25,779 nt of DNA from a virus, in the IMG/VR virus record IMGVR_UViG_3300048837_000247, positions 1-25,779 of that record; one strand, 5' to 3'. The notes beneath the pieces were generated by a model, which saw only the letters and a program-made list of their open reading frames with translations, did no database searches and was not told the DNA's origin. The position numbers and the translations under genes were made by a program. Below, in pieces: positions 17,737 to 25,779 of this stretch (position 1 is its first letter; the number at the start of each line of letters is the position of its first letter).

Positions 17737-19401
17737 CTATAAGAAGTTCTCAATGTCCTTGTTAGCGGCCTGACTGAACGCTAGAGGATATGCAATCTCA
17801 GCATAGTTCCTAGCGTGAGCAAAGTGATCTGGAGTGCTGCCCTCAATGTAACGACCGACGGGGTTTCCGTCGGGATCTTTCTCGTAGATTCGGGCAGGGG
17901 CTTTGATGTTGATCTTGTACTCAGGAGACACGTCAAGAGGCAGCTTGATGCTACGATTACGGAATCTGCCAAGCGAGAGATCGAGCCATGATGTACGATC
18001 TACGCTAACAGTAGGCTCTGGAGCATCGTCACCGGAAAGGTGGATCTCTTTACCGTTAACTGAACGGGTGTAAAAGCACATCCTAGCTCGCCCATGCCAT
18101 CTTTTACAAAAATTATGGGCTTCACGACGAGCAGGCTGAGCATCTACAACACAATATCGTACATTGAATTTCTTCATCAATTGATCGAGTTCTTCAAACA
18201 TCCGGCAACGCCCTTCCCAAAGGACTCGGACACTGGAAAGGATGTTCAAATCATTGGTTCCCACGTTCGGCGGTATCCATAAGTCAACTTCACAGTGCAA
18301 AATATGGTGACCTACGTCGACACCAAGGGTAACAATGCCGCCACTATCCCAAGCTTCATGCTTTTTGTAGTTCTTAGAACGACATCCCTCAATATCTTCG
18401 TCAGTGATCTTGGCACCATCAACAAGATGGCACTTTCCGAGTGTAGAATTGTAAAATTCCTGCTCTTCTGTCGGATCAAAGCGAGATTTGAGGTAATCTT
18501 TTGCGATTTCTACCGGAGTACGAGCGGCAGCCATTGAATATAACTGCGAAACGTGGAATCCACGAGCGTCGCGGCCAGGGAAAGCAGGCACCCACTCCGT
18601 ATTGTCCAATGAAAGCCAATCAACCTTGGTTTCATGTGGCAATTTGTTCTTGCAAAGTTGGCAAATCAGGTGAGAATTATTGATATTTGGGTCATTGATC
18701 TCTTCCGCCGTGACAACCAAGCATTCAGGGAAGTCGAGCTTAGTGCTGCGACTACAGCAAGGACACTTGAAGAAGAATTCTTCTTGTGTAGTTTCCTGAA
18801 AATAGGCGTTAATCCCCTCATTTTCGATACGAGGAGTAGAGATCATCAACACCCAAAAGTCATCTTGCCCCGATTTTCGGTGCATCACCAGGGGCAAGTT
18901 TTCTTGCATCATTTCTTCAAGCTCATCCAATACGATGACATTGACCGGAATGGATTTCAGCTTGCTCTTAGATCTTGAGCCGCGAACGAAAAGGCTCGCC
19001 GCCCCTGCTCTTTTGAGGCCAACATTTTTAACATCGGAGAAAATCTTCGATAAGTGCGGAGAAAGTTCCAAGGCCGGGTCGAATCGGCTTGCTGAGAAGT
19101 CCGAGGCATCAGATTCAGAAGGGAGAACATAGAGCACACTCCTTGATTGTACATCGATATTGTAGTACGTGAAGTTCAAAGCCCATTCAGTGAAACCCAT
19201 CTGAGCAGCTTTTTGACCTACAATGAGCTGCGAGCCTACGGCATCATGCATCTCTTTGAGCCAAGTATGCTTTCTGAACGACCAAGGGCCTTTCGTCATG
19301 TAACGATAGGTCTCGGCCCACTTAGAGGGTTTCTGAACGCTTTGTCTTTTAAGGCCAATCTTGAGGCGATCAGCCATCAACTGCGCTAACTGATGGGCCA
19401 T
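17737..19401 (-). CDS. Terminase large subunit (gpA-like packaging ATPase/nuclease)
   Basis: 554 aa from ATG 19401, preferred over a GTG at 19413 because GGAG lies six bases before the ATG. Numbering from the ATG: the adenine/Walker A-like stretch GQKAAQMGFTEW (about 62-73), as in lambda gpA relatives; Walker B with catalytic Glu VIVLDELEEM (about 155-164); coupling motif ISTPR (about 187-191); a zinc-binding pair CPCC (213-216) and CQLC (247-250); and the C-terminal RNase H-type nuclease beginning V-T-L-G-V-D-V-G (about 357-364), with a later V-V-D-A-Q-P-A-R motif. The enzyme cuts concatemers and pumps DNA into the head. It overlaps the preceding gene by 32 bp. Confidence 0.92.
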   Translation of the reverse strand: MAHQLAQLMADRLKIGLKRQSVQKPSKWAETYRYMTKGPWSFRKHTWLKEMHDAVGSQLIVGQKAAQMGFTEWALNFTYYNIDVQSRSVLYVLPSESDASDFSASRFDPALELSPHLSKIFSDVKNVGLKRAGAASLFVRGSRSKSKLKSIPVNVIVLDELEEMMQENLPLVMHRKSGQDDFWVLMISTPRIENEGINAYFQETTQEEFFFKCPCCSRSTKLDFPECLVVTAEEINDPNINNSHLICQLCKNKLPHETKVDWLSLDNTEWVPAFPGRDARGFHVSQLYSMAAARTPVEIAKDYLKSRFDPTEEQEFYNSTLGKCHLVDGAKITDEDIEGCRSKNYKKHEAWDSGGIVTLGVDVGHHILHCEVDLWIPPNVGTNDLNILSSVRVLWEGRCRMFEELDQLMKKFNVRYCVVDAQPARREAHNFCKRWHGRARMCFYTRSVNGKEIHLSGDDAPEPTVSVDRTSWLDLSLGRFRNRSIKLPLDVSPEYKINIKAPARIYEKDPDGNPVGRYIEGSTPDHFAHARNYAEIAYPLAFSQAANKDIENFL

Positions 19402-19936
19402 CGAGAACTCCACTTACAATAGCGTTGGGGATTTCGTCACTAAGGATGTCAATGACATCAGGATCAGTGACGCGATTAGTAATGACATTGAGGATAAGAG
19501 CAGTAATTTGAAGAATAGCGTTCTTATCCATGAGGAAGCCACTCTGGACTTCGATCTTATGACAAGCTGTCACAAGACCTTGGATCTTACAGATTAGATC
19601 AGAGATCTTAGCGGAATTAGCGATAAGATCGTAATCGTCTGCAATTCCGTTCAGTTGGCGTTCCAGCATCACTCTAAGGATACAAATTTCTTCGCGTAAG
19701 GACTTAAGCTCAGAAGAGTCGAGCTTCTTATCGACATCTCCCTGAATCCGAGCTAGATTGTAATTACGGTGTGCCCGACGTTCCGAAGCTGCGACAGTAT
19801 TAGTACCGTGCTGCGGACAGAATCTTTGACCGGGGATCTTGACGTAGACACACTGCCCTTTGTTGTGCACCATTTCACAACGATTCGGATCGTTTTCATC
19901 CTTGATCCTGGTGATTTTCGTATCAACTGCTGGCAT
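19370..19936 (-). CDS. Cys/His-containing protein upstream of the terminase, possible small terminase subunit
   Basis: 188 aa from ATG 19936 (MPAVDTKITRIKDEN). The frame continues upstream to 20050, but that part overlaps the previous gene and lacks a binding site. Residues about 19-42 contain C-x7-C-x9-C-x2-H (RCEMVHNKGQCVYV, then RFCPQHG), a short zinc-binding knuckle. A helical middle follows (SLREEICILRVMLERQLNGI). The C-terminus is hydrophobic helices (ILQITALILNVITNR). Such proteins often neighbour terminases in phages. A DNA-recognition or small-terminase role is inferred from position only. Confidence 0.6.
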   Translation of the reverse strand: MPAVDTKITRIKDENDPNRCEMVHNKGQCVYVKIPGQRFCPQHGTNTVAASERRAHRNYNLARIQGDVDKKLDSSELKSLREEICILRVMLERQLNGIADDYDLIANSAKISDLICKIQGLVTACHKIEVQSGFLMDKNAILQITALILNVITNRVTDPDVIDILSDEIPNAIVSGVLDGPSVSAVDG

Positions 19937-20705: not shown

Positions 20706-20999
20706 TTAGGCTACCTTACGCTCATGGGCGGGATAACCACCACCAGCCGTAGTAGCCGCAATCGCGTCACGGGGAGCCGAAGCATGGCTCAGACCCTGAG
20801 CAGCAAACGACTCAGCCAGGTCCATCTTGACCAGCTTCTCAGTGAAAGCCAGGTCCATCAAGTGACAGCTCACCTGATGATTTGCGATCGCCTGCGTGCT
20901 CAACTGAAGAGCGGTGTTGACCAGCAACTTCTCGAAAATGTCCATCTTTGTCTCCGACCCTTGGGGGTCATTACAGGGCTGACAGAGCGGATCTGACAT
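20706..20999 (-). CDS. Hypothetical 97-aa protein
   Basis: 97 aa with an excellent start context: AGGAG six bases before the ATG at 20999, within an 18-base leader identical to that of the plus-strand gene at 25113. Residues 6-9 are CQPC, a possible redox or metal pair. The middle is helical (LVNTALQLSTQAIANHQVSC) and the C-terminus is Ala/Gly-rich. Its first 29 bases overlap the metalloprotease gene end. No family recognised. Confidence 0.6.
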   Translation of the reverse strand: MSDPLCQPCNDPQGSETKMDIFEKLLVNTALQLSTQAIANHQVSCHLMDLAFTEKLVKMDLAESFAAQGLSHASAPRDAIAATTAGGGYPAHERKVA

Positions 21000-22275
21000 C
21001 GGATTCTCCTATAAAAGAGCTACCTAATGGACCCTCTGCCGTGGGAAAATAGTACAACCGCGGTAACGCATCGCCTGATACCTCGTCATTAGTTAGCTTG
21101 ACGATTCTAATGGGATACCTAGATTTCAATTGGACAACCATCTCGTAGAGTTCTTTTGGTGTTTCACCAGAAGTCAAGTAGATATAGAGCGGTCTCGCAT
21201 CAACGATTTTAGCTGACTGCTCCTTAATCTCTGCATTGAGCTTTTGGATAATGGATTCTTGCTCTGCGATGGTGAGTCTTAATTTTTGTAGCTCTTGACC
21301 GGACTTAAGAGTCTCTATCTCTTGATCCCGGCTCCTTAGGGCGGCATCCCTCTGAGCTAGGAGGGCGTCGCGTTCTTTTAGAGCAGCTTGCCACTTAAGA
21401 AGAGTTTCTTCGCATTGTTTCAATCGATCTTGGGGTTGTTCCTGAGATTGGGCCTGAGGAACGACCGCTCCTGGGGGACAATTCCTGGTTCCCCATCCTG
21501 ATCCTGTCCAGTAGAGTTCACAGCCGAAGTTCGCGGTGATTTTCTCAGGGTCCTCATCCTGAGGTAGTATTCTGCCGCTACGGTACCAACTAATCCAAGC
21601 ATCTTGGAACTCCTTCAAATCGGAGTAGTGGTAGTGATCTTTGAGAGTCTTAGACCAATCCTTTGTCCGATAACCCTGGATCATGAAATCCGAAAATTTC
21701 TGTCTCGAAGATTGGGAATCTTGAACGTGACAGAGAAGGAAGCGAACATTGGATTCAGATTGACCGTAAAAGACATCGACATCTCTTTTGGGATAATCTC
21801 GATAGGACCAGAGTTCTGAGGTAGGGAAAGCCCTTCCCGTTCGAAGAGCCTTATCTAAGGCATTCTCGAAATAAGTGGAAGTCTTTTCTACTACTGAAGC
21901 ACTTCCTTCATCGATCCAACGAAAACCAGGCTGATCACCACAAATTGAAGCATTGATTAGATGTTGTACTTCATGGGGAAGAACATCATTAATCACCCGT
22001 TCTTTTGTTGCAGCGACGATGGTCATTCGAACATCGTGGATTCGATTGACTCCGGTCCTAGGATTGGGAGAGACCGAGTAATTCATCTTGCCGCCACCTT
22101 CAGTGGCCTTAGGATCGAGTGTTACTTTTAGTGACACCTTACATTGAAAAGGAGCCACACTCCAATCCGCTGATTGTTCGATCCGGCATTTTTCAGCTTC
22201 CTGGAGATAGTTCTTTGCCTCAGGATTCTGAGCATAAAAGATCTGCCCGATCATTAAGATTATTACTGGAATCAT
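20971..22275 (-). CDS. Secreted HEVQH metalloprotease (peptidase MA-like) with coiled coil and C-terminal domain
   Basis: 434 aa. Residues 1-15 (MIPVIILMIGQIFYA) form a short signal peptide with a likely cleavage after A15. Residues about 98-130 hold the gluzincin active site: LPHEVQHLINAS with zinc ligands H101 and H105 and catalytic E102, then WIDEGSAS where E123 is the expected third ligand, as in peptidase MA-like families. Residues about 280-355 form a heptad coiled coil (KERDALLAQRDAALRSRDQE). Residues about 358-434 look like a small alpha/beta domain (RPLYIYLTSGETP, then LYYFPTAEG), maybe thioredoxin-like. Export suggests action on the cell envelope or outside the cell rather than on the capsid. 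It is the first gene of the leftward transcript. No cleavage substrate can be named. Confidence 0.75.
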   Translation of the reverse strand: MIPVIILMIGQIFYAQNPEAKNYLQEAEKCRIEQSADWSVAPFQCKVSLKVTLDPKATEGGGKMNYSVSPNPRTGVNRIHDVRMTIVAATKERVINDVLPHEVQHLINASICGDQPGFRWIDEGSASVVEKTSTYFENALDKALRTGRAFPTSELWSYRDYPKRDVDVFYGQSESNVRFLLCHVQDSQSSRQKFSDFMIQGYRTKDWSKTLKDHYHYSDLKEFQDAWISWYRSGRILPQDEDPEKITANFGCELYWTGSGWGTRNCPPGAVVPQAQSQEQPQDRLKQCEETLLKWQAALKERDALLAQRDAALRSRDQEIETLKSGQELQKLRLTIAEQESIIQKLNAEIKEQSAKIVDARPLYIYLTSGETPKELYEMVVQLKSRYPIRIVKLTNDEVSGDALPRLYYFPTAEGPLGSSFIGESDVRSALSAL

Positions 22276-22412: not shown

Positions 22413-22521
22413 AGTCCCTCGTCCTTGATTTTGACCTTCGACCCTAGCCTATAAAATCAAAAAAAAAATCTTACCGGAGTCCCTCGTCCTTGATTTTGAC
22501 CTTCGACCCTGGCCTATAAAA
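22413..22521 (+). repeat. 44-bp direct repeat pair containing TATAAAA
   Basis: Two copies (22413-22456 and 22478-22521) differ at one base and start 65 bp apart. Each carries TTGATT, TTGACC, TTCGACC and then TATAAAA near its right end. TTGATT-19-TATAAA could be a weak sigma70 promoter facing right. The near-perfect repetition in a divergent control region suggests duplicated promoters or binding sites. Confidence 0.8.
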
Positions 22522-22573
22522 ATTCACGAAATCAAAGTGGCAGGTGCGGGTGGCCTGGCAATAGTGGACGGGC

Positions 22574-22587
22574 GTTCACTGGTGAAC
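22574..22587. promoter_or_regulatory. Operator-like inverted repeat GTTCAC-TG-GTGAAC
   Basis: Six-base arms with a two-base centre, typical in size of a helix-turn-helix dimer site. It lies just left of the 15-bp iterons. Confidence 0.4.
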
Positions 22588-22611
22588 ATTTGACCCCTAC
22601 CGGTATGTACA

Positions 22612-22678
22612 CTGTACGCATGGTTACTGTACGCATGGTTACTGTACGCATGGTTACTGTACGCATGGTTACTGTACG
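22612..22678. repeat. Four 15-bp iterons plus a partial fifth
   Basis: The unit CTGTACGCATGGTTA is repeated exactly four times head to tail (22612-22671), followed by CTGTACG (22672-22678). Each unit carries TGTACG. Perfect tandem iterons of this length are usual for replication initiator or regulator binding. They lie about 70 bp upstream of the first rightward promoter. Confidence 0.9.
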
Positions 22679-22684
22679 TGCGTG

Positions 22685-22696
22685 AAGTGTACACTT
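22685..22696. promoter_or_regulatory. Perfect 12-bp palindrome AAGTGTACACTT
   Basis: A self-complementary site immediately right of the iterons, sharing the TGTAC core with them. A related GTACACTGTAC lies at the left edge (22607-22617). Probably part of the same binding region. Confidence 0.5.
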
Positions 22697-22745
22697 ATCT
22701 TACCATGGTCGCTGAATCTTTTTTAAGAATTCTGTATCAAGCCTG

Positions 22746-22773
22746 TTGACATGGGTTGCCGATAGTGTATGAT
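22746..22773 (+). promoter_or_regulatory. Rightward sigma70-type promoter P1
   Basis: TTGACA (22746-22751), 16 bases, TATGAT (22768-22773): a perfect -35 and one mismatch in -10. It lies in the first copy of a 37-bp repeated element (22737-22773). Transcription would start near 22780 and run through P2. Confidence 0.8.
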
Positions 22774-22796
22774 GAGGACGTGGCAAGTGGATGTAA

Positions 22797-22880
22797 CGCA
22801 ACCCTTGGAGAAAACTTTTCGGAATTTCATGTCAAGCCTATTGACATGGGTTGCCGATAGTGTATGATACAAGGGTTGCG
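22797..22880. repeat. 11-bp inverted repeat flanking P2
   Basis: CGCAACCCTTG (22797-22807) and CAAGGGTTGCG (22870-22880) are perfect reverse complements. In RNA from P1 they can pair across P2. In RNA from P2 the left arm is absent. The right arm overlaps the first hairpin of the candidate RNA. Confidence 0.6.
22841..22868 (+). promoter_or_regulatory. Rightward sigma70-type promoter P2
   Basis: TTGACA (22841-22846), 16 bases, TATGAT (22863-22868), in the second copy (22832-22868) of the 37-bp element, which differs from P1 at one base just before the -35. Its expected start near 22875 coincides with the first helix of the candidate structured RNA. Confidence 0.82.
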
Positions 22881-23240
22881 AGCGAAAGCTTGCGACGGGC
22901 CAGCAATGGCTGCAGTGAAACCAGTATCCCTGCCTATAGCTGACTACGCTGGACTATAGGTGAGTGGGGGCGAACGGAGTAACTGCCTACATAGTGGTGC
23001 GTCTTGAAACGTACCTAGCCTGCTGTATGTCAGTAGTGGGCACTTGTATACTATGCTGTAATGTCGGCCTACGGCCGTGAACCAGCAGTACAAGCGAACG
23101 CTACGTCCGAAGGGTAGTGCCTTAGGACCGCAGGGGAGCAGAAGCTCTAATGATCTCTGATCATTCTATGCCGCCTAGACAAGCAGGCCAATGAACTGTC
23201 TCCGCCTGAGCAAGCAGGAACTGCTCGCTACGGTATCGGC
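22875..23240 (+). ncRNA. Candidate large structured RNA / 5' leader of the rightward operon
   Basis: About 365 bases directly downstream of P2 with no convincing gene. Helices read by eye: 22875-22883/22888-22896 (9 bp, GAAA loop); 22898-22902/22907-22911 (GCAA loop); 22933-22939/22954-22960 (CCTATAG); 22982-22985 plus 22989-22993 with 23026-23034, enclosing 22996-23002/23009-23015; 23065-23069/23073-23077; 23105-23113/23120-23128 with one G.A pair; 23136-23139/23144-23147; 23149-23155/23159-23165; 23177-23181/23197-23201; 23208-23212/23222-23226. A further CGCA-GAAA-TGCG hairpin (23252-23263) touches the ribosome site of the next gene. It could be an independent RNA or a regulatory leader. 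Phages carry large ornate RNAs (GOLLD, ROOL), but I cannot assign it to one. Confidence 0.55.
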
Positions 23241-23504
23241 AAAGGGTCCGCCGCAGAAATGCGAGGAACCTTATGTCAATACTAACCAAGCTGTCTAATT
23301 ACTTCTTTCCAAGAAAGATCCCGGTTCTGAATAGCAGAGCCGTGTACACGGACTTTCTGGAAAGTTCGGAGTTCTGCCCTACTTGTAAGGTGACAACTCC
23401 GAATATCCCGTCGAACGGCCGCATTCGTTGCTGCTACTGCCTTCAAGTCAAAGGCGTTCGCTAATCCCTAATCAAGGCGGCGGACTCTCTGCCGATACCG
23501 TAGC
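23227..23504. repeat. 15-bp perfect inverted repeat enclosing the zinc-ribbon gene
   Basis: Arms 23227-23241 (GCTACGGTATCGGCA) and 23490-23504 (its exact reverse complement) bracket the 63-aa gene with its ribosome site. The right arm also overlaps a local hairpin GTAGCT/AGCTAC (23500-23505 with 23513-23518), so two folds compete. The 23465-23559 spacer between the two genes holds these elements and no gene. Confidence 0.75.
23273..23464 (+). CDS. 63-aa zinc-ribbon protein
   Basis: 63 aa with GAGGA just upstream of ATG; the same GAGGAACCT context precedes the next gene. Residues about 35-57 contain CPTC-x14-CCYC, a four-Cys zinc ribbon. The N-terminus is basic and hydrophobic (LTKLSNYFFPRKIPVLNS). 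Small zinc ribbons in phage early operons often act on transcription or translation machinery, but no specific family is recognised. It is the first gene of the rightward operon, 398 bases from P2, and is enclosed by a perfect inverted repeat. Confidence 0.7.
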   Translation: MSILTKLSNYFFPRKIPVLNSRAVYTDFLESSEFCPTCKVTTPNIPSNGRIRCCYCLQVKGVR

Positions 23505-23538
23505 TACCTGACAGCTACTCTTGACGGGCCTTGGTCCC
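23503..23538. repeat. Left arm of a 36-bp imperfect inverted repeat around the ParB-like gene
   Basis: Its reverse complement matches 25053-25088 at about 29 of 36 positions. The core GACAGCTACTCT (23510-23521) is perfect, and five of the seven mismatches are transitions, which keeps G-U pairing possible in RNA. Confidence 0.6.
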
Positions 23539-23559
23539 TTATCGAAAGACGAGGAACCT

Positions 23560-25020
23560 ATGACCAAGAAAGCTATCAAGTCCGTCGTATCTTTTGTCAC
23601 GGCGGCCTACGTGTTCGTCAAGGAGTATTTGGTTGGCAAGGAGTACGATGCTCCTCTCTGCGACATTTTCTGGCCTGAGGAACGGAATTCCCGCCATCAA
23701 CTGGACTACGGCAACGAGGCCACTGGTATGCAACTGGTCCGCTCTTTGCGGACTGGTTGGAACAAGCTTCTGAGCCCGACAATCCAGGTGGCGATTCCGC
23801 CGAAGGAGAAGATCGCTGAGTATAACAAGCGTCGCCATGCTCAATGGGAAGCTTTGAAAAAGACCGCTCATGCGAGCACTGGCAACCGGATTGATACGTA
23901 TCGGCTCGAAGCGTTCGAGTTCTACAACGTCAATCCCGAGACCGGCGAACTGTACCCGGTTCGGCTTGTAGGCAATATGTCTTTCCGACGTGCGAGAAAG
24001 TTTCTCGATGCCTATATCTCGGCGAAGTATCCGCACGAGTTCCATGCCAAGAAGGTCGGCGATAAGACCGAAGCGGTCGATCTGGGCCTTGAACCCATCG
24101 ATCCGCCGACGTTCCATATCAATGTCGTTGTTGCAGACTACCTGCCCGACGGCGACGATAAGCTGATCGACTTCCAAGCGACCGAGAACACTAACCCTGG
24201 TCGCCAGGAACTAGGCGAGGCATCCCTGTTGTCCATCGCCCGACGCATGAAGCTTGCTGGAAAAACCCAGCAGGACTTCCGCGTGCGGATGAAGGACGGC
24301 ATGGGCCAGAAAATGTGGGAAATCATGTCCTTGGATCAAGATCCAAGGTATCGTGGTCTCAAGTTCTGGCAGCGTTGCGTCAACGGCGTTGACGCTAAGG
24401 CCAAGCTTCGTGAGGACAATCAAGGTAAGAAGCAGGGCGAAAAGAAGGAGTTCGAGGTCTTTCGTGGCGGTCCGATTGACAGCAGCAAGCTGAATACCGG
24501 CACCCTGCGGACTTTCCGGGCCTATCACAAAGGACCGGAGCGTTTCCGGCCCTACGGGAAGGATGGGCTTGATCTCCAGAACGTCGTTCTGGAAGCTTCA
24601 CACCTTGAGGACTACTTCATTGCCGCCATGAGCGGAAAGTCCGGCAATGCCCATACGATGATGGATCGTGGTACGGTCAAGAACCTGGTCGATGCTGGTT
24701 CAAACAGCAAGATCGTGCTCAAAACCCTGCGTTCGGTCTACGACGGCGATGGTACGGCCATCGGAATTCTCGGCGAAAGCCCGGAGTTCGTGGTGCTTCT
24801 GGATCTGCTGCATGATCTCTACATGCACAAACCGCCGAAGGATACCTGGACAAAGCTCTACAAGCACGTCGCAGGTATCTACGAGAAGCACGTTGGTATC
24901 TCCCCTGATACTGATGCGACCGTGAATGAGGAAACGCACTCCGAGGCCGTCGACGAAGAGGCGACCGAAGAGTTGCAAGAGAAACTGGTGGCGGCTTCTG
25001 GCCGCAAGCGTAAGAAATAG
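23560..25020 (+). CDS. Divergent ParB-like DNA-binding protein
   Basis: 486 aa from ATG 23560 (GAGGA five bases upstream); a TTG at 23521 is an unlikely longer start. Residues about 114-215 follow the ParB N-domain layout: YRLEAFEFY, then VGNMSFRRARKFLDAY in place of the usual GERRxxA segment, then INVVVADYLPDGDDKLIDFQ and ATENTN, like 'VPVIVRDL...ALIENLQR'. Residues about 216-258 resemble the ParB helix-turn-helix (GEASLLSIARRMKLAGKTQQ). The C-terminal half is unfamiliar and ends in a basic GRKRKK. ParB proteins bind centromere-like sites and use CTP; here the key Arg motif is altered. It is the main gene of the rightward operon, and no ParA is in the window. It could serve in segregation, replication or early regulation. 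Confidence 0.6.
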   Translation: MTKKAIKSVVSFVTAAYVFVKEYLVGKEYDAPLCDIFWPEERNSRHQLDYGNEATGMQLVRSLRTGWNKLLSPTIQVAIPPKEKIAEYNKRRHAQWEALKKTAHASTGNRIDTYRLEAFEFYNVNPETGELYPVRLVGNMSFRRARKFLDAYISAKYPHEFHAKKVGDKTEAVDLGLEPIDPPTFHINVVVADYLPDGDDKLIDFQATENTNPGRQELGEASLLSIARRMKLAGKTQQDFRVRMKDGMGQKMWEIMSLDQDPRYRGLKFWQRCVNGVDAKAKLREDNQGKKQGEKKEFEVFRGGPIDSSKLNTGTLRTFRAYHKGPERFRPYGKDGLDLQNVVLEASHLEDYFIAAMSGKSGNAHTMMDRGTVKNLVDAGSNSKIVLKTLRSVYDGDGTAIGILGESPEFVVLLDLLHDLYMHKPPKDTWTKLYKHVAGIYEKHVGISPDTDATVNEETHSEAVDEEATEELQEKLVAASGRKRKK

Positions 25021-25049
25021 AGATCAGGCGTTCTGATCTCTGATCATTC
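25021..25049 (+). promoter_or_regulatory. Hairpin after the ParB-like gene, plus a repeated GATC element
   Basis: AGATCAG-GCGTT-CTGATCT (25021-25039) forms a perfect 7-bp hairpin right after the stop codon without a T-run. It overlaps TGATCTCTGATCATTC (25034-25049), an exact 16-base copy of 23151-23166 in the structured leader. Possibly an RNA processing or binding site. Confidence 0.45.
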
Positions 25050-25052
25050 CAC

Positions 25053-25088
25053 GGGACCAGGGCTTGTCGAGAGTAGCTGTCGGGAAGG
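25053..25088. repeat. Right arm of a 36-bp imperfect inverted repeat around the ParB-like gene
   Basis: Pairs with 23503-23538; core AGAGTAGCTGTC at 25070-25081. It lies in the 92-bp spacer before the 86-aa gene. Confidence 0.6.
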
Positions 25089-25112: not shown

Positions 25113-25373
25113 ATGTCCAAGAAAAAGGCGTTACCGCCAAAGGTACGGGAAGCGATGGAACGGTATATCGATGCCTATATCGCTTTCAAGGAATCTACGA
25201 CTCTGATGTCTGGATCAATGCTCGATATCGCTCACGAATATCCGATTGAGGATTTCGAAGGCGAAGTGATCGAGTATCGAGACAAGAAATGGAAGATCCA
25301 GGATCTTTTCAAAGGGCCCTCACGGTGGCAATCCGTGTTCGTTGAACAATACGGAATCAGGGAAGTGAAATGA
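25113..25373 (+). CDS. Hypothetical 86-aa protein
   Basis: 86 aa with AGGAG six bases before ATG. The start is basic (SKKKALPPKVREAMERYIDA) and forms a helix. The acidic middle (YPIEDFEGEVIEYRDKKWKI) is compatible with a small alpha/beta fold, followed by W-Q-S-V-F-V-E-Q-Y. No Cys or membrane segment. The stop overlaps the next start (ATGA). I do not recognise the family. Confidence 0.65.
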   Translation: MSKKKALPPKVREAMERYIDAYIAFKESTTLMSGSMLDIAHEYPIEDFEGEVIEYRDKKWKIQDLFKGPSRWQSVFVEQYGIREVK

Positions 25374-25489
25374 TACTGATAACAATCCTTACTTTCATAT
25401 TCTTAGGGCTTTTCTACCCTAGAGTATTGGGGGTTATCTGTATCTTAATAGCGATCTGGGTTATTGCCGCCCAATGGGATCAAGAATGA
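25370..25489 (+). CDS. 39-aa two-helix membrane peptide
   Basis: Starts inside the previous stop (ATGA) with GGGAAG upstream and ends with TGA 25487-25489. It reads as two hydrophobic helices, about residues 2-15 (ILITILTFIFLGLF) and 20-34 (LGVICILIAIWVIAA), joined by Y-P-R-V, with a charged end DQE. Coupling with the 86-aa gene and a good site support a real gene. Such peptides may be holin-like, toxin-like or membrane regulators; nothing decides between these. Confidence 0.65.
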   Translation: MILITILTFIFLGLFYPRVLGVICILIAIWVIAAQWDQE

Positions 25490-25507
25490 GTCTTGGTTCC
25501 CGCGTCG

Positions 25508-25545
25508 TCCGGGGAGTGCCAATGGCACTCCCCGGATTTTTTTTT
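25508..25545 (+). terminator. First of two tandem terminators ending the rightward operon
   Basis: Perfect 13-bp stem (25508-25520 with 25524-25536; arm TCCGGGGAGTGCC) with loop AAT and nine T residues. Confidence 0.95.
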
Positions 25546-25591
25546 GCCCGATCTCGAATCCTATTAGGATTCGAGATCGGGCATTTTTTTT
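25546..25591 (+). terminator. Second tandem terminator
   Basis: Perfect 17-bp stem (25546-25562 with 25566-25582; arm begins GCCCGATCTCGAATC), loop ATT, then A and eight T residues. It directly abuts the first terminator. Its tail segment GCTCGGGCATTTTT is repeated twice more at 25592-25620. Confidence 0.93.
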
Positions 25592-25620
25592 GCTCGGGCA
25601 TTTTTTTGCTCGGGCATTTT
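25592..25620. repeat. Short tandem repeat GCTCGGGCA plus T-tract
   Basis: Two head-to-tail copies of GCTCGGGCATTTTT(TT) directly after the second terminator, apparently duplicated from its 3' arm and T-tract. Confidence 0.7.
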
Positions 25621-25779
25621 TGATTAAGTCCAGCGTCATTGAGCCGATATTTGATATTTTTGATTAAGTCCAGCGTCATTGAGCCGATATTTGATATTTT
25701 TGATTAAGTCCAGCGTCATTGAGCCGATATTTGACGTTCGATATTTTTGATATTTTTGATTAAGTCCAGCGTCATTGAG
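25621..25779. repeat. 40-bp direct repeats, at least four copies, continuing past the window
   Basis: Units begin TGATTAAGTCCAGCGTCATT at 25621, 25661, 25701 and 25757. The first two are identical 40-mers; the third diverges at its end (GACGTTCG), with a 16-bp AT-rich insertion before the fourth, which is cut by the window end. The sequence is AT-rich with no unique spacers, so it is not a CRISPR. Iteron, centromere or genome-end repeat are possible. No gene is present after 25489. Confidence 0.92.

Follow-up and report, generated by a model that had tools for sequence, protein, structure and literature searches.

Long stems around single early genes in a family of DNA phages point to gene-by-gene control at the RNA level

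In the early operon of the phage described here, two consecutive genes are each flanked by the arms of a long inverted repeat, and in the mRNA each of the two should sit in its own closed loop. The layout recurs in 35 clear cases from 17 phages, at least 16 of them relatives of this phage. An earlier note on this DNA had singled out the leader upstream of these genes; the conserved RNA feature is the series of long stems round each gene, which begins at the 3′ edge of that leader. The architecture is well supported, and from it we infer a mechanism in which a cistron would become open to ribosomes only when its transcription has been completed.

Operon and leader

The window, i.e., the whole stretch of DNA analysed, is a complete IMG/VR record of 25,779 bases. 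Head and tail genes lie on the minus strand, with the terminase at 17737-19413, and a plus-strand operon begins at about 22.8 kb and ends in twin terminators at 25.5 kb. The plus-strand region is best explained as the leader and start of an early phage operon. Beyond the terminase region, a minus-strand ORF of 434 aa (20971-22275) carries an HEVQH...DEGSA motif and resembles a zinc metallopeptidase; a convincing Pfam match to it is absent. At the other end, positions 25577-25779 contain terminator-like hairpins and, after them, tandem repeats of 16 bp and 40 bp up to the end of the record. The features of the operon are as follows.

22611-22678, no strand: 15-bp direct repeats, 4.5 perfect copies (ACTGTACGCATGGTT), upstream of the promoters (tandem repeat finder)
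22746-22773, plus: promoter P1, TTGACA-16-TATGAT, within a 53-nt near-duplicate of P2
22841-22868, plus: promoter P2, TTGACA-16-TATGAT, expected start near 22875
22875-23226, plus: structured 5′ leader, opening with two GNRA hairpins (22875-22911) and containing a branched domain at 23018-23188
23227-23254, plus: stem 1, 5′ arm, pairs with 23477-23504
23242-23272, plus: alternative local hairpin with a GAAA loop that takes the gene 1 Shine-Dalgarno sequence (AGGA, 23264-23267), -13.7 kcal/mol
23273-23464, plus: gene 1, 63 aa, with CPTC and CCYC motifs
23477-23504, plus: stem 1, 3′ arm, after the gene 1 stop codon
23507-23538, plus: stem 2, 5′ arm, pairs with 25053-25084
23533-23558, plus: alternative local hairpin with a GAAA loop that takes the gene 2 Shine-Dalgarno sequence, -9.8 kcal/mol
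23560-25020, plus: gene 2, 486 aa
25053-25084, plus: stem 2, 3′ arm
25113-25489, plus: gene 3 (25113-25373, 86 aa) and gene 4 (25370-25489, 39 aa)
25507-25583, plus: two strong terminator hairpins ending the operon

P1 and P2 are nearly identical promoters of the sigma-70 type, with 11 of 12 consensus matches. The exact repeats at 22611-22678 resemble iterons or operator sites. A P2-like element (TTGACATGGGGTGCCGATTGTGGTACAAT) stands upstream of the same type of operon in phage G016. The promoter spacer is conserved between the two copies in this phage and G016 (TTGACATGGGnTGCCGATnGTG; L124 6705-6733), which suggests a factor that reads beyond the -35 and -10 boxes.

The leader that follows P2 is about 350 nt long and is without a recognised gene. 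The earlier note had proposed a structured RNA below a strong promoter, with the P2 start falling on the first helix, and both points hold: P2 is near consensus and its expected start is the beginning of the first hairpin. It had also named a folding energy no better than that of dinucleotide-shuffled sequence as an outcome that would speak against the structure; the leader folds better than its shuffles. For 22875-23272 the sense strand has a folding energy of -157.3 kcal/mol (z -3.26), a value equalled by none of 100 shuffles, and for the leader alone (22875-23226) z is -3.11 with one shuffle in 100 as good, as against -1.59 for the antisense strand. A smaller in-house run on 22877-23226 with 30 shuffles gave z -1.73, so that the folding excess of the leader as a whole is only moderate. 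The GAAA and GCAA hairpins at 22875-22911 reach z -5.2 and the inner domain at 23018-23165 reaches z -4.15 (0 of 200 shuffles); the folding excess of 22912-22990 and of 23100-23226 is not significant. Two of the three GNRA loops counted in the earlier note lie within the leader, and the third (23252-23263) belongs to the Shine-Dalgarno hairpin of gene 1. An AATGATC...GATCATT palindromic hairpin is found inside the leader at 23149-23165, and a 16-nt copy of part of it occurs after gene 2 at 25034-25049. Phage G005 has a similar AATGATC-type hairpin after its own gene 2 (L021, near 8690), and AATGATC is also present in the G005 arms.

The suggestion that this stretch is a stand-alone RNA of the GOLLD/ROOL kind finds nothing to support it. 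It shares with those RNAs the character of a structured non-coding stretch within a phage genome, but it is continuous with a protein-coding operon, and no terminator was found between the leader and the genes. In Rfam, which the earlier note had proposed searching, no family matches the leader: the window has no covariance-model match at the gathering threshold and 22500-23600 has no credible match at a relaxed one. A tRNA/tmRNA search found none near the leader. No DNA homologue of the leader was found by blastn among 50,697 phage records or in the whole records of nine relatives, and a sensitive blastn against all related loci collected gave a resemblance limited to the promoter region, in G016. 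Processing of 22875-23226 from the early mRNA as an independent functional RNA, which would be compatible with any model of the stems, has the sense-strand folding excess in its favour, and the leader would be set free if RNase III cleaved stem 1. It is nevertheless quite improbable, given the lack of an Rfam match or homologue and the leaders of related operons, which do not fold consistently better than control segments from the same phages. The other half of that suggestion, a regulatory leader, fits better. The structured leader and its 5′-terminal hairpins may protect the 5′ end of the transcript, and the structure may also stop upstream sequence from competing with stem 1.

Stems around early genes in the window and in related phages

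Stem 1 is 28 nt long (26 Watson-Crick pairs, one G.U and one A.C) and stem 2 comprises 32 pairs (27 Watson-Crick and five G.U). No other inverted repeat in the 25.8-kb record is as strong; the terminator ranks next. A partition function over 22869-23520 assigns the pairs of stem 1 probabilities of 0.95-1.0, the single mismatch excepted, and when the complete 2.7-kb transcript is folded, its minimum-energy structure contains both stems. Only two bases separate the end of stem 1 from the start of stem 2, so that gene 1 and gene 2 are enclosed consecutively. A stem round genes 3 and 4 is weak and non-significant (p 0.09).

A family search with the gene 1 product gave no match. A short match to it in a T4-like contig (L003) was rejected as a relative since no common neighbourhood accompanies it. 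The gene 2 protein itself has no Pfam match and its structure model is unusable (mean pLDDT 42). Its homologues in G024, L160, G021 and others look ParB/Noc/KorB-like: the G024 protein matches ParB_N with E 1.5e-4, below the Pfam cut-off, and its model (mean pLDDT 68) matches the Spo0J/ParB fold with E 2.4e-5 and shows similarity to Noc and KorB. By alignment to these homologues, the gene 2 protein of the window may be ParB-like.

Initial scans with the terminase and gene 2 as single-protein queries found nothing. Relatives were found via the capsid protein and more via a terminase alignment, and whole records or early regions were read. The arms in the resulting cases are 22-38 nt long (median 27), and the enclosed ORF most often begins 11-24 nt in from the stem. 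The typical stem is nearly perfect, comprises about 25-32 pairs and links the sequence directly upstream of a ribosome site with that directly downstream of the stop codon. Proteins encoded inside the stems are between about 40 and 486 aa long, the ParB-like family among them. As the 35 cases had been filtered for an enclosed ORF, unfiltered counts are the fairer measure. Among 46 strong stems with long loops in early regions, 32 tightly enclose a sense ORF and 2 an antisense ORF, and loops slid at random do so in 2.2%; three phages are represented in this count by second loci of the same contig and none twice. When each region was shuffled ten times with dinucleotides preserved, no stem reached the same score. 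Downstream late regions on these contigs, over 600 kb, yielded a total of three stems; late genes are almost never enclosed.

Several phages carry the arrangement more than once. G005 has three stems, two of them perfect 23-mers, round three genes or gene pairs, and these are the top three inverted repeats of its 68 kb. Two stems are found in G004, three in L148 and six in series in G016, and L160, L202, L214, G021 and G034 have two or more each. G024 and G026 contain a nested version in which an outer stem surrounds the closed gene 1 together with gene 2. In the clearest chains, successive stems are separated by only a few bases. The layout is not universal: the gene 2 homologue of G037 has no enclosing stem, and none was seen in several related contigs that include 5-10 kb upstream. 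Two side observations concern neighbouring loci: a low-complexity, alanine-rich ORF (L021 5572-5922) adjoins the G005 early operon, and L179, another relative, has dense, mutually complementary repeats, unlike the single-gene stems, about 300-750 bases upstream of its terminase.

The arms of different phages are no more similar than shuffled arms even though gene 2 is homologous among these phages; it is the pairing that has been kept and not the sequence. Non-Watson-Crick pairs read on the sense strand comprise 53 G.U against 22 A.C (p 4.5e-4, strand-symmetric scoring), and this preference points to the transcript as the paired molecule. Identical stems in L183 and L184, which come from different metagenomes and are one base apart in the region, argue against an assembly artefact; with that single difference the pair gives no near-relative covariation. 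The sequences give strong support for stems that are genuine and that act as RNA.

A relative of the terminase (41% identity) lies within a 290-kb contig, L221, of a Planctomycetota MAG. This locus is likely a prophage, and the host phylum of these phages is likely Planctomycetota.

Shine-Dalgarno hairpins and the function of the stems

In many cases the end of the 5′ arm that faces the loop is complementary to the Shine-Dalgarno sequence of the same gene. In gene 1 of the window, the CGCA-GAAA-UGCG hairpin at 23252-23263 overlaps the 5′ arm of stem 1, and 23227-23300 folds with z -3.39; gene 2 has a similar GAAA-capped hairpin. Other examples are CCCTCG-GGAAAG-CGAGGG in G016 and TTGCCTC-TAGAATT-GAGGCAA in L148. 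In L213 the hairpin hides the Shine-Dalgarno sequence and start codon almost entirely, and the 3′ arm nearly duplicates the sequence around the ribosome site. The Shine-Dalgarno hairpin draws on the same arm bases as the long stem, and the two are mutually exclusive. Pairing between a 5′ arm and its own ribosome site is better than with swapped arms (z -7.2; 0 of 20,000 permutations), and in 18 of the 34 cases most of the Shine-Dalgarno core is engaged by the arm, compared to 33% with swapped arms (p 0.0013). Against late genes the figures are 56% and 14% (p 0.0017). The pairing is absent in about ten of the 34 cases. According to the energy model, addition of the 3′ arm raises the openness of the gene 1 Shine-Dalgarno from 0.25 to 0.52, and the mean gain over the cases is small (0.40 to 0.48, p 0.03-0.05).

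These observations suggest a mechanism in which the mRNA folds so that each cistron occupies its own closed loop. During transcription of a gene, the part of its 5′ arm nearest the loop would fold on the Shine-Dalgarno sequence, often in a GAAA-capped hairpin, and exclude ribosomes. The 3′ arm is similar to the Shine-Dalgarno region, and once the polymerase has left the stop codon behind, this arm would capture the 5′ arm in a much longer stem and free the Shine-Dalgarno sequence, restricting translation to complete messages. RNase III would cut the same stems and produce end-paired single-gene messages from the polycistronic RNA. This reading, i.e., completion-gated translation with closure of each cistron and RNase III processing as a likely consequence, is the one we tentatively prefer, at rather less than even confidence. 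Against such a switch, RNase III would normally cleave perfect long stems and might destroy the arms before any switching takes place. Bacterial genes are normally translated while transcription continues, and a gene kept free of ribosomes during transcription risks Rho termination.

The stems may instead serve processing and protection only, with RNase III releasing single-gene messages whose paired ends resist decay and with the Shine-Dalgarno hairpins being incidental or merely slowing initiation. This is a quite plausible account, if one to which we would also give less than an even chance. RNase III needs roughly two helical turns, and the arm lengths lie just above this requirement; stems abut in the clearest chains, and an RNase III gene is encoded in the Planctomycetota MAG that carries the related prophage-like terminase, the one host-like genome. 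Such an account leaves unexplained why the arm end fits its own Shine-Dalgarno sequence and why the ORF start is kept so near the arm, and separate local hairpins would suffice for processing and protection. A closed stem could also repress its gene in the style of hok, aapA or icaR and be opened later by processing or a phage protein, which would delay expression. Pairing of the 5′ and 3′ parts of a full mRNA is a known device for this, as in aapA3 (PMC6733600) and icaR (PMC3868564), but in the known cases the 3′ element pairs with the Shine-Dalgarno itself, whereas here that sequence lies in the loop, between arm and start codon, in nearly all cases, and 3′-arm pairing tends to open it. Repression is accordingly unlikely. 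Far less probable still is that the inverted repeats act as DNA, whether at the ends of gene cassettes that move or invert or as sites for protein binding. Single genes flanked by inverted repeats are the usual sign of a mobile cassette, and the G016 arms have a core sequence common to its cassettes. End sequences common to copies were found in G016 only, however; every gene has its own arm pair, unrelated to the arms of other phages, and the enclosed genes include no recognised recombinase or transposase. The excess of G.U over A.C on the sense strand, the fit of the loops to sense and not antisense ORFs and the fit of the arms to the ribosome site also argue against a DNA function.

Comparison with known systems and implications

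In Helicobacter pylori aapA3, co-transcriptional hairpins form at the Shine-Dalgarno sequence, followed by end-to-end pairing, and the gene is silenced (PMC6733600). Pairing of both message ends is shared with hok and aapA3, and for the full-length mRNA of the window it is predicted; short hairpins that mask the Shine-Dalgarno during transcription are a further likeness. In hok and aapA3, however, the Shine-Dalgarno is masked in the final fold and a small toxin is silenced, whereas here the final fold appears to free it, the end pairing itself leaving it in the loop. The fold is moreover repeated from gene to gene along an operon, and the enclosed proteins are unrelated to one another and reach 486 aa, in contrast to a small membrane toxin. 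In icaR of Staphylococcus aureus, the 3′-UTR pairs with the 5′-UTR of the same gene in a duplex that RNase III can cut, and the gene is silenced (PMC3868564). The phage arrangement is similar in the pairing and in a duplex that RNase III would cut; it differs in that icaR uses a 7-nt anti-Shine-Dalgarno motif and the phage stems, at 22-38 nt, stand beside the Shine-Dalgarno and not on it. Both aapA3 and icaR are single messages, in contrast to the operon described here.

The 16S and 23S rRNAs of bacteria are each surrounded by an RNase III processing stem. The phage operon resembles this organization in that sequences before and after each product form a long stem, serially on one transcript, and in that the double helix enclosing each product exceeds about 20 pairs; it differs in that protein genes are enclosed, with their ribosome sites just inside the stem. 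In the early region of phage T7, RNase III sites lie between genes as local hairpins. Both phages would have an early polycistronic mRNA with likely RNase III substrates between genes, but in T7 the hairpins are intergenic and here the stems enclose the genes. The layout would belong near mRNA end-to-end pairing, and further from it if gating were confirmed. A search of full-text literature, in which a minority of subscription papers fall, found no description of an operon with every cistron enclosed by a stem, which is weak evidence.

It is possible, though we hold this with some doubt, that a DNA phage family opens the ribosome site of each early gene only once the sequence after its stop codon has been transcribed, with cistrons that are self-closed and independently processed. 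If so, genes that are finished before their ribosome site opens, or that are excised in closed form, would represent a distinct layer of viral control. The rule of arm, ribosome site, ORF and arm is simple and can be scanned for in all genomes and built into reporters. It would account for long inverted repeats flanking single genes, which annotation pipelines ignore. The layout points to an undescribed RNA-level control of phage genes one by one.
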